This document shows positions 3,848 to 16,630 of a stretch of DNA of 64,000 nt, piece by piece. A program made the position numbers and the translations under genes. Source of the stretch: Adhaeribacter swui (GTDB lineage Bacteria; Bacteroidota; Bacteroidia; Cytophagales; Hymenobacteraceae); NCBI RefSeq assembly GCF_014217805.1, contig NZ_CP055156.1, positions 992,001-1,056,000 on the forward strand, written 5' to 3'. The notes beneath the pieces were generated by a model, which worked only from the letters and a program-made list of their open reading frames with translations, was not told the DNA's origin and did no database searches. Positions within the stretch are counted from its first letter, which is position 1, and every line of letters starts with the position of its first letter.

Positions 3848-4330
3848 AGGTTGCAAGTTGCAGGTTACAAGTTGCAGGTTAAAAATTTTAACTATTAACT
3901 ATTATTAAGTTGTCGGTTTTTCAAATATTTGATAAAAGCTGCTAATTGCCGGGATAACTGAATGAGTTCTTCATATTTATTCTGGTAAAAAGCATCTTCT
4001 AACATTTTTAATTCTTTTAAAACATACAACTGATTTCTTAGTTCCCCCGCTAATCCCTTGGCGTATTTTAAAAAGCGGATAAAATCAGCATTGTTGTCGT
4101 ATTCAAATCCTTCTGCAATATTATTGGAGATAGACATGGCCGCTCGTTGCATTTGGTCCCGGGTACCGTAATCTATTTTTAAATTACCGGAAGCGCACAT
4201 CTTATAAATATCAATCGCAATAGAAGTCGCTTTCTGATAAATCTCAAAATCCTCAAACCGCCCTATCCGCGCCATCTATTTTTTTAATTTTTTTAATCAA
4301 TACCCACCTGTAACCTGCAACTTGCAACCT
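3848..4330. mobile_element. IVS-like element: four-helix gene bracketed by 22-bp perfect inverted repeats
   Basis: Bases 3848-3869 and 4309-4330 are exact reverse complements over 22 bp (first bases aggttgcaagttgc). The left arm ends 6 bp before the trpG start codon and the right arm lies 4 bp past the trpE stop codon, so the roughly 480-bp segment sits exactly in the trpE-trpG junction. In trp mRNA the arms would form a 22-bp helix with the four-helix gene in the loop. This matches the layout of intervening sequences in 23S rRNA that encode S23-type proteins. That it moved here as a unit is inference; no transposase or target duplication is visible. Confidence 0.55.
3895..4275 (-). CDS. Four-helix bundle protein (S23/IVS-encoded family)
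   Basis: This 126-residue, all-alpha, charged protein has the hallmark pattern of the 23S rRNA intervening-sequence protein family: FEDFEIYQKATSIAIDIYK at the N terminus, YGTRDQMQRAAMSISNNIAEG in the middle, then FIRFLKYAKGLAGELRNQL and a C-terminal helix with LSRQLAAFIKYL. The function of the family is unknown; members form homopentamers and related proteins (Avd) occur in diversity-generating retroelements. It has no known role in tryptophan synthesis. It lies between trpE and trpG inside a 22-bp inverted repeat, which suggests insertion of a selfish or accessory unit. Confidence 0.9.
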   Translation of the reverse strand: MARIGRFEDFEIYQKATSIAIDIYKMCASGNLKIDYGTRDQMQRAAMSISNNIAEGFEYDNNADFIRFLKYAKGLAGELRNQLYVLKELKMLEDAFYQNKYEELIQLSRQLAAFIKYLKNRQLNNS

Positions 4331-4334
4331 GCAA

Positions 4335-5747
4335 CTATATCGAAGCTGCCTTTTCCATGGCGGAGCGGAGGGCGGCTAGTTTGTGGTGTACTTCGTTGAG
4401 TTCGGATTCGGGGTTGGATTTGGCAACTACGCCGGCGCCGGCCTGGTAGTGCAGGCGGTTGCGGGTGCTCAGGAAAGACCGGATCATGATGGCGTGGTTA
4501 AAGTCGCCGTTAAAACCAATGTAACCGATGCAACCACCGTAATACCCGCGGCCGGTGGGTTCCAGCTCGTCGATAATACTCATGGCGCGGTACTTGGGGG
4601 CACCGGATAAGGTACCGGCCGGGAACGTGTCGGCGACCATGAGCATGGGTGCTACTTCTTTGGACCGCTGGCTGGTAACTTTCGAAACCAAATGGATCAC
4701 GTGCGAATAATACTGCACTTCTTTAAACACCTCTACGGCTACCTGGTCGCCGTGGCGGCCTAAGTCGTTGCGGGCCAGGTCTACCAGCATTACGTGCTCG
4801 GAATTTTCTTTCGGGTCGTCGTAGAGTTTGCGGGCTAGTTCGGCGTCGGCGTTGTCGTTGCCGGTTCTTCTAAAAGTGCCGGCAATGGGGTAAATGCTGG
4901 CTTTATTGCCTTTTAAAGTAATCTGAGCCTCGGGCGAAGAACCAAAAATTTTAAAATTTCCGTAGTCGAAGTAAAATAAATACGGCGACGGATTAATAGA
5001 ACGCAAAGCCCGGTATACGTTAAACTCATCGCCTTTAAAGCCTTTCGAGAACTTGCGCGACAATACTATTTGAAAAACGTTACCCAGTTTGCAATGGCGC
5101 TGGCCTTCGTTGAGTACTTTTAAAAAATGGTCGTCGGTGAAGTTAGAAGTTTCGTCGGCATCCGGAGTGAAGGTAAAAGCCGGAATGTTTTTATTTTTAA
5201 TCAGCGCTTCCAGTTGTTCCAGGCCCGGGCCGGTGGTGTTTTCGTCAATGCTGTGCTCGAAAATATACAGCTCGTTTTTAAACGGATCTACCACTACAAT
5301 AAACCGGTACAAACGGTACAGAATTTCGGGTAACTCCGGGTAAGCGGTTTCCTTCGGCCGGAATTCAATGTCTTCGTAATACGTAACGGCATCGTAGGTC
5401 ATGTAGCCAAACAAGCCGTTATTGATGAAGTTAAAAGGATTGGCCCGCACGTAAAACGAATTAATAAACTGCTGCAAATGCTTCACAGCATCACGACGGT
5501 CTTCCAGAGGAATTTGTTCTTCGGTACCATCTGGGAAATACTGACTGATTACCTGGTCTTTTAACTCAAATCCCCCAATCGGGTCACAACAGATGTAGGA
5601 AAAGCTATTTTCGTTGCCGTGGTAATCCGAGCTTTCGAGCAAAATGCAGTTGGGATATTTATCACGTAATTGTAAATAAATACCAACAGGGGTAACGGTA
5701 TCGGCGAGGAGCTGTTTGTGGGTGTTATACAGCTTGTATTTATTCAT
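4335..5747 (-). CDS. trpE: Anthranilate synthase component I
   Basis: This 470-residue chorismate-using enzyme makes anthranilate with ammonia from TrpG. The N-terminal half carries the tryptophan feedback site (LLESSDYHGNENSFSYI, the LLES..S type). The C-terminal catalytic domain has FQIVLSRKF, NPSPYLFYFDYG, IYPIAGTFRRTGN, DLARNDLGRHG, FPAGTLSGAPK and GGCIGYIGFNGD. It is the first structural gene of the operon. The distance to the leader terminator upstream is about 250 bp, which contains no ORF. The stop TAG at 4337-4335 abuts the right arm of the inverted-repeat element. Confidence 0.97.
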   Translation of the reverse strand: MNKYKLYNTHKQLLADTVTPVGIYLQLRDKYPNCILLESSDYHGNENSFSYICCDPIGGFELKDQVISQYFPDGTEEQIPLEDRRDAVKHLQQFINSFYVRANPFNFINNGLFGYMTYDAVTYYEDIEFRPKETAYPELPEILYRLYRFIVVVDPFKNELYIFEHSIDENTTGPGLEQLEALIKNKNIPAFTFTPDADETSNFTDDHFLKVLNEGQRHCKLGNVFQIVLSRKFSKGFKGDEFNVYRALRSINPSPYLFYFDYGNFKIFGSSPEAQITLKGNKASIYPIAGTFRRTGNDNADAELARKLYDDPKENSEHVMLVDLARNDLGRHGDQVAVEVFKEVQYYSHVIHLVSKVTSQRSKEVAPMLMVADTFPAGTLSGAPKYRAMSIIDELEPTGRGYYGGCIGYIGFNGDFNHAIMIRSFLSTRNRLHYQAGAGVVAKSNPESELNEVHHKLAALRSAMEKAASI

Positions 5748-6002
5748 TTTTTAAATTTCTGTTTTTCTATGACAATTATTAAAAGGGAACGAGCGCTTCG
5801 CTTAATTAAAAATTAGAAATTATGAATTAGAAATTTTCATCAATTTGACTAATACTAATTTATTGGGTAGATGATTTTCTAAAAATTAAGTTAACAAAGC
5901 ATTAACCGGAGTACACCGGGTAAAAGCAACTTAGCCTCGCCAATAATAATTTGTCCGGAAGAAAAAATATTGCATCATGGATACTATTTCTAAAAAGTTT
6001 AA

Positions 6003-6033
6003 AAATAAAAAAGCCCAAGTGAACTTGGGCTTT
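6003..6033 (-). terminator. trp leader terminator (attenuator)
   Basis: Read on the minus strand, aaagcccaag (6033-6024) pairs with cttgggcttt (6019-6010) across a 4-base loop, giving a 10-bp stem followed by TTTTTTATTTTT. This is an intrinsic terminator placed after the Trp-rich leader peptide and before trpE. A 7-base segment upstream (6072-6066) can instead pair with its loop and inner stem (6024-6018), so it is a candidate regulated terminator. Confidence 0.85.
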
Positions 6034-6093
6034 TCTGCTATTTATAGCTGTATACAAACGTGCCGGTTCACTCTTTTAGAATTCTAAAAGGTG
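6018..6093 (-). promoter_or_regulatory. trp leader alternative RNA structures (pause hairpin and antiterminator)
   Basis: Minus-strand RNA can form a first hairpin from cac+cttttagaa (6093-6082) with ttctaaaag+gtg (6081-6069); its core 6073-6090 is a perfect 18-base palindrome covering the last leader codons and stop. The 3' side of this region, agtgaac (6072-6066), is perfectly complementary to gttcact (6024-6018) in the terminator loop and stem. The hairpin, the antiterminator and the terminator are therefore mutually exclusive. A ribosome stalled on the Trp codons (6099-6094) would open the first hairpin and leave agtgaac free, favouring read-through. A ribosome reaching the stop would mask agtgaac. 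Confidence 0.75.
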
Positions 6094-6129
6094 CCACCAG
6101 CCAGCAGTATAGAGTTGTTTCATCTTCAT
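6076..6129 (-). CDS. trpL: trp operon leader peptide with tandem Trp codons
   Basis: The 17-codon ORF reads MKMKQLYTAGWWHLLEF followed by TAA. Two adjacent Trp codons (TGG TGG, 6099-6094) in so short a peptide, directly before an intrinsic terminator and the trp genes, are the classic signature of ribosome-mediated attenuation. The first ATG lies only 8 bases after the -7 box, so the message may be leaderless or nearly so; the Met at codon 3 is the alternative start. The identification rests on position, codon content and RNA structure, not on peptide similarity. Confidence 0.85.
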   Translation of the reverse strand: MKMKQLYTAGWWHLLEF

Positions 6130-6136
6130 GATGCTG

Positions 6137-6166
6137 CAAATATAGCACTCGTATTTAAGCGCGCAA
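6137..6166 (-). promoter_or_regulatory. trp operon promoter (Bacteroidota type)
   Basis: On the minus strand, TTG (6166-6164) is followed after exactly 19 bases by TATATTTG (6144-6137), matching the Bacteroidota consensus of a -33 TTG and -7 TAnnTTTG box. Transcription would start near 6130, at or just before the leader peptide ATG. The promoter lies immediately after the stop codon of the esterase gene on the same strand. Confidence 0.85.
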
Positions 6167-6174
6167 CATTTTTT

Positions 6175-7248
6175 TTATTTTTTTGCGTAGAGCCATTTAA
6201 ACGCCTCCGGGAACTCGCGCCGCCAGAACCTTTCGCTGTGGTCCCCGTCCGGGCGGGTCTGGTACCAGATGTGTTCCGCCGGAAAGCCCTGGGCCAATAA
6301 TTGTTCGTAAAGTTCACGCATTTGCGGTACCATTTCTTCGCCTTCCTGCTCGCCAGCCAGCAAAACCAGACGGGTATTTTTAAAATCTTTCTGGGCTACG
6401 CTAAATATCTTATCCGAAAACCACAAGGAAGGCGACATAACTAAAGCTTTGCCAAAAACCTGTGGGTAATGCGCCGCCGCGTACAACGAAATTAAACCAC
6501 CCAACGAAGAACCGCCAATGCCGGTATGTTCGGCCTCGGGCTTGGTGCGGAAAGTAGCGTCCACGTACGGTTTTAAATCCTGCACAATAAACTGCAGGTA
6601 TTTTTCGCCATCGCCTCCGCCGTATTCCGGATTTTCATAGGGCGTAAGTTCGTTAATCCGTTCTTCCCCGCCGTGTTCAATACCCACTACTATTACCTGC
6701 GGGCCACCGGTTTGCGCCAGTTCATCCAGGGTTTCGTCTACGCCCCATTCCTCGGTAAAGCTGTAATAGGCATCGAATAAGTTCTGGCCGTCGTGCAAAT
6801 ACAACACCGGGTAGCGTTCGTTGCTGGTAGCATAATTTAGGGGTAAATACAACCAGATGCGCCGGGTTCGACCCAGTTCCGGCATTTCAAAAGCGGCATC
6901 CAGTACTTGCACCTGGGGGCTGGCCGTGTGTTTGCGGGGTGGCCGGACAACCAAGTCCGTCCAGTTGGCTACTTGCACGGCAACTACTTCCGGTGAGGGC
7001 AGTTTAATGATGCGGTTGGGCAGGTCGCTGCCGTCGGCCGCGGCCTCCACCGACTCCCAGGTGCCACGGGTTACTTTAAACTCGACCGGCCGGTTCATGA
7101 TGGGTATTTTTACTTCATAGGTACCATCGGGCTGTAATTGCAGGCGGTAAGCCGACGCTCCCGGTTGCCAGCGGTTAAAATTCCCTACCAGGTACAGGTG
7201 CGCCCCCGGCGGCGTATTTTCCGGAATCTGATTGACCACTATTTTCAT
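6175..7248 (-). CDS. Esterase of the EsterD/Fes type with N-terminal starch-binding-like domain
   Basis: From ATG at 7248-7246 the protein is about 357 residues. Residues 1-75 resemble a CBM20/CBM48-like beta-sandwich (LYLVGNFNRWQPG and a later DLPNR). The rest is an alpha/beta hydrolase of the putative-esterase family: PVLYLHDGQNLFD, VIVVGIEHGGEER, the nucleophile elbow GIGGSSLGGLISLY (Ser) and a C-terminal DGDHSERFW (His). No signal peptide is visible, so it is probably cytoplasmic. The frame stays open upstream to 7443, but those 65 residues look non-coding and the domain starts right after the internal Met. It lies divergent from a GH13 amylase, so a role in glycan or acyl-ester breakdown is plausible; the substrate is unknown. 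Confidence 0.85.
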   Translation of the reverse strand: MKIVVNQIPENTPPGAHLYLVGNFNRWQPGASAYRLQLQPDGTYEVKIPIMNRPVEFKVTRGTWESVEAAADGSDLPNRIIKLPSPEVVAVQVANWTDLVVRPPRKHTASPQVQVLDAAFEMPELGRTRRIWLYLPLNYATSNERYPVLYLHDGQNLFDAYYSFTEEWGVDETLDELAQTGGPQVIVVGIEHGGEERINELTPYENPEYGGGDGEKYLQFIVQDLKPYVDATFRTKPEAEHTGIGGSSLGGLISLYAAAHYPQVFGKALVMSPSLWFSDKIFSVAQKDFKNTRLVLLAGEQEGEEMVPQMRELYEQLLAQGFPAEHIWYQTRPDGDHSERFWRREFPEAFKWLYAKK

Positions 7249-7721
7249 GCGCGCTTTCCCGACATAATAAATCAAGTAGGTGTATAATTTAAAGCTCGGT
7301 TTTAGAACCGGTAACTCTGTTCCAAGGTGTACTCTATGCGTTACCAAATAGTTCTGGAGCAGGTGAACGTTAGTTTTTTTTAAATTTTGCCAAAAGCATT
7401 TCCATCGGGCAATAGTATTTTGATTAAAGTATAATTTTATCAACTCGCACTAATTTATCACCTAACGTCATAGGATTGCTCTTTAATTAGAAAACAGGTT
7501 AAATTTCAAAAAGAAGGCACTTTTAGGGGTAAGTAATGGTATAATGTACAATATCCGGCCCAACTATATTTTTCCGGCAAGTTGTAATATACCGGCACTC
7601 TGGCCTTGTGCTCCCGCGTAAAAACGCTTACATTTAGCTCCTTACCAGCCTCACGCAACCTTATACCCAAGCCGGGTGCGGCTGGTACCTTTACCTACTT
7701 GTAACCCGTGATCTTGCGCTT
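7249..7721. promoter_or_regulatory. Divergent intergenic region between esterase and GH13 genes
   Basis: No gene is supported here. Three similar words, caatatccggcc, tatttttccggcaa and taatataccggca, occur within 7548-7595 and could be repeated protein-binding sites or chance. No clear TAnnTTTG box is seen for the rightward amylase gene. Confidence 0.35.
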
Positions 7722-16160: not shown

Positions 16161-16552
16161 ATGGCAAGCCGTCTTATCGCTGCGCCTTCGGGCGGAGAGG
16201 AAAGTCCGGGCAACGTAGAGCAGCCTACTTCCTAACGGGAAGGGTTCCGGCGCCAGCCGGGATACAGCCAGTGCCACAGAAAATAACCGCCATTTTTAAT
16301 TTTTTAAAATGGTAAGGGTGAAAAGGTGCGGTAAGAGCGCACCAGTACGCGGGTGACCGTTGTAGCTGGGTAAACCTTAGGCGTTGAAAGACCAAATAGG
16401 CTGGCAGCACTGCCACTTCGGTGGTAGTTAAGGGCGGCTCGTCCGATGCCAGTGGGTAGGTTGATGGAGCCCCGCCGCGAGGTTGGGCCTAGATAAATGA
16501 TAAGACGTTAACCTTTTGGTTAGCGACAGAACCCGGCTTACAGGCTTGCTAT
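16161..16552 (+). ncRNA. rnpB: RNase P RNA, bacterial type A
   Basis: The region contains the universal P4 strands: GAGGAAAGTCCGGGC near 16195 at the 5' side and GACAGAACCCGGCTTAC near 16525 at the 3' side. The ends pair as helix P1 (atggcaagcc at 16161-16170 with ggcttgctat at 16543-16552). Internal landmarks include ggtaagggtgaaaaggtgcggtaagagcgcacc and gtgaccgttg, typical of P7-P11. The length of about 390 nt is normal. This ribozyme matures tRNA 5' ends. An AT-rich T run follows. The gene for the tRNA-repair-type enzyme KptA comes next. Confidence 0.96.
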
Positions 16553-16630
16553 ATTTTTAAATTTTTAAAATTTCAGGATTTCAGGGCAACTCCGCATTTC
16601 CCTTTTCATTATTTTGCCCCCAACACAGCC

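Follow-up and report, generated by a model that had tools for sequence, protein, structure and literature searches.

The closest described leaders come from several bacterial groups. Rfam lists one in Bacteroidota as RF01692 (Bacteroid-trp, the Bacteroidete tryptophan peptide leader RNA), a family that originates from Weinberg et al. 2010 (PMC2864571). Like the leader described here, it places Trp codons in a leader before trpE. The E. coli leader, RF00513 (Trp_leader), follows a common logic, in which helices 1:2 and 3:4 stand against helix 2:3. The papers on Sinorhizobium meliloti trpL (PMC7298713) and Streptomyces lividans trpL1 (PMC8079986) describe trp leader peptides that are leaderless. 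These are trp attenuators too, with a peptide whose first codon lies at the RNA 5' end or close to it; they belong to other phyla and their starts are experimental, whereas the start proposed here is predicted and leaves a 5' UTR of 3 nt. In the same phylum, the authors of a study on Flavobacterium psychrophilum see strong clues for leader-peptide attenuation of amino-acid operons and name pheA and hisG among the conserved elements, and trp goes unmentioned in the main text (PMC9723704). A search of the open-licence literature found no study dedicated to trp attenuation in Bacteroidota. Lopatovskaya 2010 (cited in PMC4833913) and Merino 2008 may have predicted it, so predictions earlier than this one and additional to Rfam are possible.

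The leader before trpE in the window, the whole 64,000-nucleotide stretch of Adhaeribacter swui DNA that was analysed, is of a kind with earlier examples in the phylum and stands as a divergent member from Cytophagales. The RF01692 model has no match in the window at E<=5 and none in the organism's own genome at E<=0.001, and under strict filters it passes in only one (G050) of 59 Cytophagales genomes, the own genome included. Among 35 distinct relatives' loci submitted, nine reach its cut-off of 49 bits (L109, L114, L115, L119, L120, L122, L124, L129 and L130). These loci share the window's parts, and their antiterminator follows the first Trp codon by about 25 nt. Eight of the nine differ from the window in having three adjacent Trp codons (WWW) and a promoter box 16-20 nt before the ATG (4 nt in one), against two Trp codons (WW) and 7 nt in the window; in the ninth, L109, the box lies 5 nt before the ATG. 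The full RF00513 model scores 31.8 bits on the window (E 5e-5 in a 221-base search), under its cut-off of 41 bits, which is passed by none of the 59 genomes. This likeness is unspecific, the best match in the own genome lying elsewhere at 32.2 bits, and it was dropped as evidence.

A preliminary description of this DNA had suggested a leaderless leader peptide and called the design unusual. Near-leaderless initiation is plausible, with a predicted 5' UTR of 3 nt, but the design has precedents in S. meliloti and S. lividans. Nor is the regulator itself unusual, since Rfam has listed a Bacteroidete trp leader, RF01692, since 2010 and leader-peptide attenuation has been reported for F. psychrophilum (PMC9723704). 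The window's single case is otherwise an expected regulator; what stands out most is its likely near-leaderless start and, among relatives, the occurrence of attenuators in tandem.

The leader and its gene run in the window

Every part named in the preliminary description is present on the minus strand where it was placed. In the order of transcription, the features of the locus are:

6175-7443, minus strand: esterase ORF, the upstream neighbour, ending about 140 nt before the terminator
6164-6166, minus strand: candidate -33 element TTG, 19 nt before the -7 box (sequence)
6137-6144, minus strand: candidate sigma-A -7 box TATATTTG (sequence and genus alignment)
6132, minus strand: predicted transcription start, from the TAnnTTTG spacing of F. 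psychrophilum
6076-6129, minus strand: leader ORF MKMKQLYTAGWWHLLEF plus stop, 17 codons, ATG at 6129-6127 and TAA at 6078-6076
6094-6099, minus strand: adjacent Trp codons, the putative sensing codons, in alignment columns invariant in the genus
6069-6093, minus strand: ORF-end hairpin (1:2), 10 pairs by folding
6062-6073, minus strand: antiterminator 5' strand (region 2), AGUGAAC at 6072-6066 plus flanking pairs
6017-6030, minus strand: antiterminator 3' strand (region 3), terminator arm and loop, GUUCACU at 6024-6018
6007-6036, minus strand: intrinsic terminator stem-loop, 13 pairs, then a U-rich tail
5748-6006, minus strand: terminator-to-trpE spacer, 259 nt
4335-5747, minus strand: trpE, the putatively controlled gene (PF04715, PF00425)
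3842-3243, minus strand: trpG, class I GATase (Pfam)
3246-2260, minus strand: trpD, glycosyl transferase 3 domains (Pfam)
1951-1142, minus strand: trpC, IGPS (Pfam)
1131-439, minus strand: trpF, PRAI (Pfam)

Folding the whole leader gives -47.7 kcal/mol, where shuffles average -28.9 (z -4.85). The antiterminator consists of the 7 pairs between AGUGAAC and GUUCACU, a complementarity already recognized in the preliminary description, together with flanking pairs beyond the extent given there: G6073 with U6017, and GGC at 6064-6062 with GCC at 6030-6028. None of 200 dinucleotide shuffles equals this duplex of the window's own locus, L001. The terminator had also been located correctly, but the fold gives it 13 pairs and not 10 bp. 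The view that the three structures are mutually exclusive has to be given up: in the fold the ORF-end hairpin is present together with the terminator, and each excludes the antiterminator alone, as in the classic scheme. In Adhaeribacter these helices are conserved without co-variation. The ORF-end hairpin has 100% of its cells paired across 8 Adhaeribacter sequences, neither it nor the antiterminator contains a two-sided pair change among the 8 genomes, and the one such change in the terminator is no better than in shuffles.

The box TATATTTG is the sole TAnnTTTG between 6200 and trpE on the minus strand, and it is invariant in the alignment of 8 Adhaeribacter genomes. Mapped starts in F. psychrophilum place TAnnTTTG at -12 to -5 (PMC9723704). 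Applied to the window, this rule puts +1 at 6132 and predicts a 5' UTR of 3 nt, with a gap of 7 nt between the box and the leader AUG. This AUG is kept in 8 of 8 Adhaeribacter loci and a second in-frame AUG, at codon 3, is missing in L005-L008, so the first AUG is the likely start.

The spacer between terminator and trpE, estimated earlier at about 250 bp, measures 259 nt in the window versus 28 nt in A. rhizoryzae (L031), and contains an AT-rich, repeat-like stretch. A search of this spacer for a second promoter found no TAnnTTTG and five boxes with one mismatch, none of them with a properly spaced TTG. A scan for E. coli-type promoters returned a single weak site at 5775-5746, below the shuffle figure of 2.6, and was set aside. 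Further along the gene run, a PF05635 gene (23S rRNA-intervening-sequence protein) sits between trpE and trpG at 3895-4275 on the minus strand, and an ORF at 306-1 on the same strand, which runs past the window edge, presumably resembles trpB.

Conservation of the leader and of the antiterminator pairing

The comparison drew on trpE loci from relatives near and far. In the first sample trpE was sought in 59 relatives' genomes, with matches in 57 (E<=0.001), some merely paralogues, and the 30 best loci became L001-L030. A genome-contig scan supplied the best 80 of 587 relatives (L031-L110), and a phylum draw of 118 genomes gave 57 matches at E<=1e-80, from which 40 upstream regions were used (L111-L150). 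Duplicates were dropped (L031=L006, L032=L009, L038=L017 and L092=L087), as was L054 with its 51 nt of upstream DNA, leaving 145 distinct regions. To count as a leader, an ORF had to contain TGGTGG no more than 75 nt downstream of an ATG or GTG in the same frame.

By this definition trpE is preceded by a Trp-Trp leader at 137 of the 145 distinct Bacteroidota loci, at 136 of them 60-420 nt from trpE, and the leader is present in all 8 Adhaeribacter loci (L001-L008). As controls, reading the opposite strand yields a leader in 1/145 regions, and shuffled regions yield 4.65 of 145 on average (range 2-9). One locus counted in the 137, L136, lies 479 nt from trpE without a terminator and is probably a chance match. 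The 8 regions without WW comprise L051, L089 and L123, which have W-x-W ORFs nearby, L021 and L148, with scattered-Trp ORFs only, and L023, L028 and L091, with none. A covariance model of the Adhaeribacter leader recovers 8 of 8 genus genomes at E<1e-36 and has one match in the own genome.

The pairing potential of the antiterminator was assessed by setting the strand after the Trp codons against the terminator arm and loop and comparing the result with 200 shuffles, a site passing when matched by at most 10 of the 200. A terminator, by the rule of the analysis, is missing at 9 of 150 leader sites, and 95 of the 141 tested sites pass: 25/32 from the own family and order, 50/76 from genome contigs, 12/19 from the class and 8/14 from the phylum. 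The 46 that do not pass include the Hymenobacter leaders, which miss because their G+C-rich arms pair equally well with shuffles. The median distance from the first Trp codon to the start of the duplex is 25 nt, with quartiles of 23.5-26 where the null gives quartiles of 20-42.

The strands that form this duplex differ by lineage. Adhaeribacter pairs AGUGAAC with GUUCACU, Rufibacter pairs UGAACAGC with GCUGUUCA, and some Algoriphagus pair GGAAGUUUAG with CUGGAUUUCC. When antiterminator and terminator strands were exchanged among 52 non-redundant sites, own pairs stood on average at -5.07 kcal/mol versus the row/column-mean expectation, a value as low as which none of 10000 permutations came (z -13). 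A strand's own arm ranked first among all partners at 9/52 sites and within the top tenth at 30/52. The two antiterminator strands co-vary between lineages. A comparison of relatives for such co-variation had been proposed in the preliminary description; the WW codons proved conserved and the strands co-vary as expected from lineage to lineage, but not within the genus. From one lineage to another the antiterminator helix is replaced as a whole, yet its spacing from the Trp codons is kept, and trp attenuation in Bacteroidota probably extends well past the leaders detected by the Rfam model.

Ribosome position and alternative readings

Folding of the predicted transcript with the nucleotides beneath and behind a ribosome barred from pairing, a simplification, links these helices to translation of the leader. 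With RNA out to 6018 or 6014, the antiterminator forms in full (7/7) if the A site holds one of the two Trp codons or the codon after them. It is lost (0/7) if the ribosome has reached the stop codon or if there is none, and without a ribosome the ORF-end hairpin forms. Once the RNA is out to 6010 or 6003, the minimum-energy fold is always the terminator, even under a stalled ribosome. Since the terminator wins once the RNA reaches 6010, the switch must be kinetic, with the first-formed helix deciding the outcome.

These folds suggest a model in which RNA polymerase would begin a few bases ahead of the leader AUG and the translating ribosome would choose between two structures. When Trp-tRNA is scarce, the ribosome would stall at the two Trp codons and cover the 5' arm of the ORF-end hairpin, leaving strand 6073-6062 free to pair with the emerging 6030-6017. 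Formation of this antiterminator would delay the terminator and allow transcription to proceed into trpE. When Trp-tRNA is ample, the ribosome would reach the stop codon and mask 6073-6062, the terminator at 6036-6007 would form and transcription would stop. If no ribosome is loaded, hairpin 6093-6069 would hide 6073-6062 and termination would again follow. At 93 of the 95 passing sites, the start of the antiterminator strand would lie beneath a ribosome standing on the stop codon; at L058 the stop comes only 9 nt after the first Trp codon, sooner than the masking model allows.

Conservation, the partner swap and the constrained folding strongly support the ribosome-mediated Trp attenuation put forward in the preliminary description, and an attenuator of this type very probably controls the trp gene run of the window. 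We infer this regulation, as well as the start site and the near-leaderless initiation, from sequence and modelling. It is highly improbable that the terminator belongs to the upstream esterase gene and that the short ORF and the pairings are incidental. The esterase ORF does end at 6175 on the same strand, but a sigma-A type box stands between it and the terminator, the WW leader and terminator persist before trpE despite unrelated upstream sequence, and the partner-swap result would be unexpected. A leader read by a TRAP-like or TrpR-like protein, or by a T-box, in place of a ribosome has, if anything, a still smaller chance of being correct. Such systems control trp genes in other bacteria, but the own genome has no match to TrpR (PF01371) or to the T-box (RF00230), and the in-frame adjacent Trp codons with their fixed distance to the antiterminator point to a ribosome.

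Attenuation by a ribosome is also compatible with a transcription start further upstream, a longer 5' UTR and ordinary initiation, a reading that is unlikely but carries appreciably more weight than the other two. TAnnTTTG is absent within 60 nt in 37 of 146 ATG leaders, the gap between box and ATG is 26-50 nt in the Hymenobacter and Dyadobacter leaders, and leaderless mRNAs make up only 5.5% in F. psychrophilum (PMC9723704). Against this reading, the box that precedes the AUG by 7 nt does not vary in the 8 genus genomes, and TAnnTTTG stands 4-11 nt upstream of the ATG in 60/146 ATG leaders (exactly 4 nt, a predicted 5' UTR of 0, in 13/146) versus 5/1187 other ATGs of the same regions, a background count that includes duplicate genomes. 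As judged from box positions, a near-leaderless start of the trp leader is common, not general, across the sampled lineages, and near-leaderless initiation from the predicted start site is likely for the window's leader peptide.

Tandem leaders and other candidate attenuators

Two Trp-Trp leaders stand in series before trpE at 10 of the 145 loci. L009-L014, L033 and L034 come from one genus, Rufibacter by its named members, and the further tandems are L050 (Fulvivirga marina) and L066 (a Flammeovirgaceae MAG), each leader with its own terminator; L134, where the second site overlaps the first, was excluded from the count. In the Rufibacter tandems the first leader has a predicted 5' UTR of 0 nt and the second has no sigma-A box. 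This arrangement raises the possibility, tentative and somewhat short of an even chance, that trp attenuation in several lineages depends on leaderless initiation (predicted 0 nt in Rufibacter, 3 nt in Adhaeribacter) and that Rufibacter and two other lineages carry a second, internally started attenuator in series. If true, a tandem would apply two Trp checks, with differing types of initiation, to one transcript, and attenuation would rely on leaderless initiation, which is rare in Bacteroidota. Near-leaderless starts and tandems may also provide a route to testing leader translation in Bacteroidota, which are rare users of Shine-Dalgarno sequences.

The own genome contains leader-like sequences before other amino-acid genes. 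About 203 nt before hisG (L151), a leader ORF ends in ...VHFHHYHPSIRK, and its ATG is preceded at 9 nt by TACATTTG; this is probably a His attenuator, a candidate for a near-leaderless start as well. About 250 nt before ilvD (L152), the ORF MLFTSSVLNRIILSVIIDAKRWMV stands ahead of an inverted repeat rich in G+C and a run of T, both recognized by eye, and probably belongs to a branched-chain attenuator whose 5' UTR would be longer. Elsewhere in the window, a bacterial RNase P RNA of class A lies on the plus strand at 16161-16556 (268 bits).
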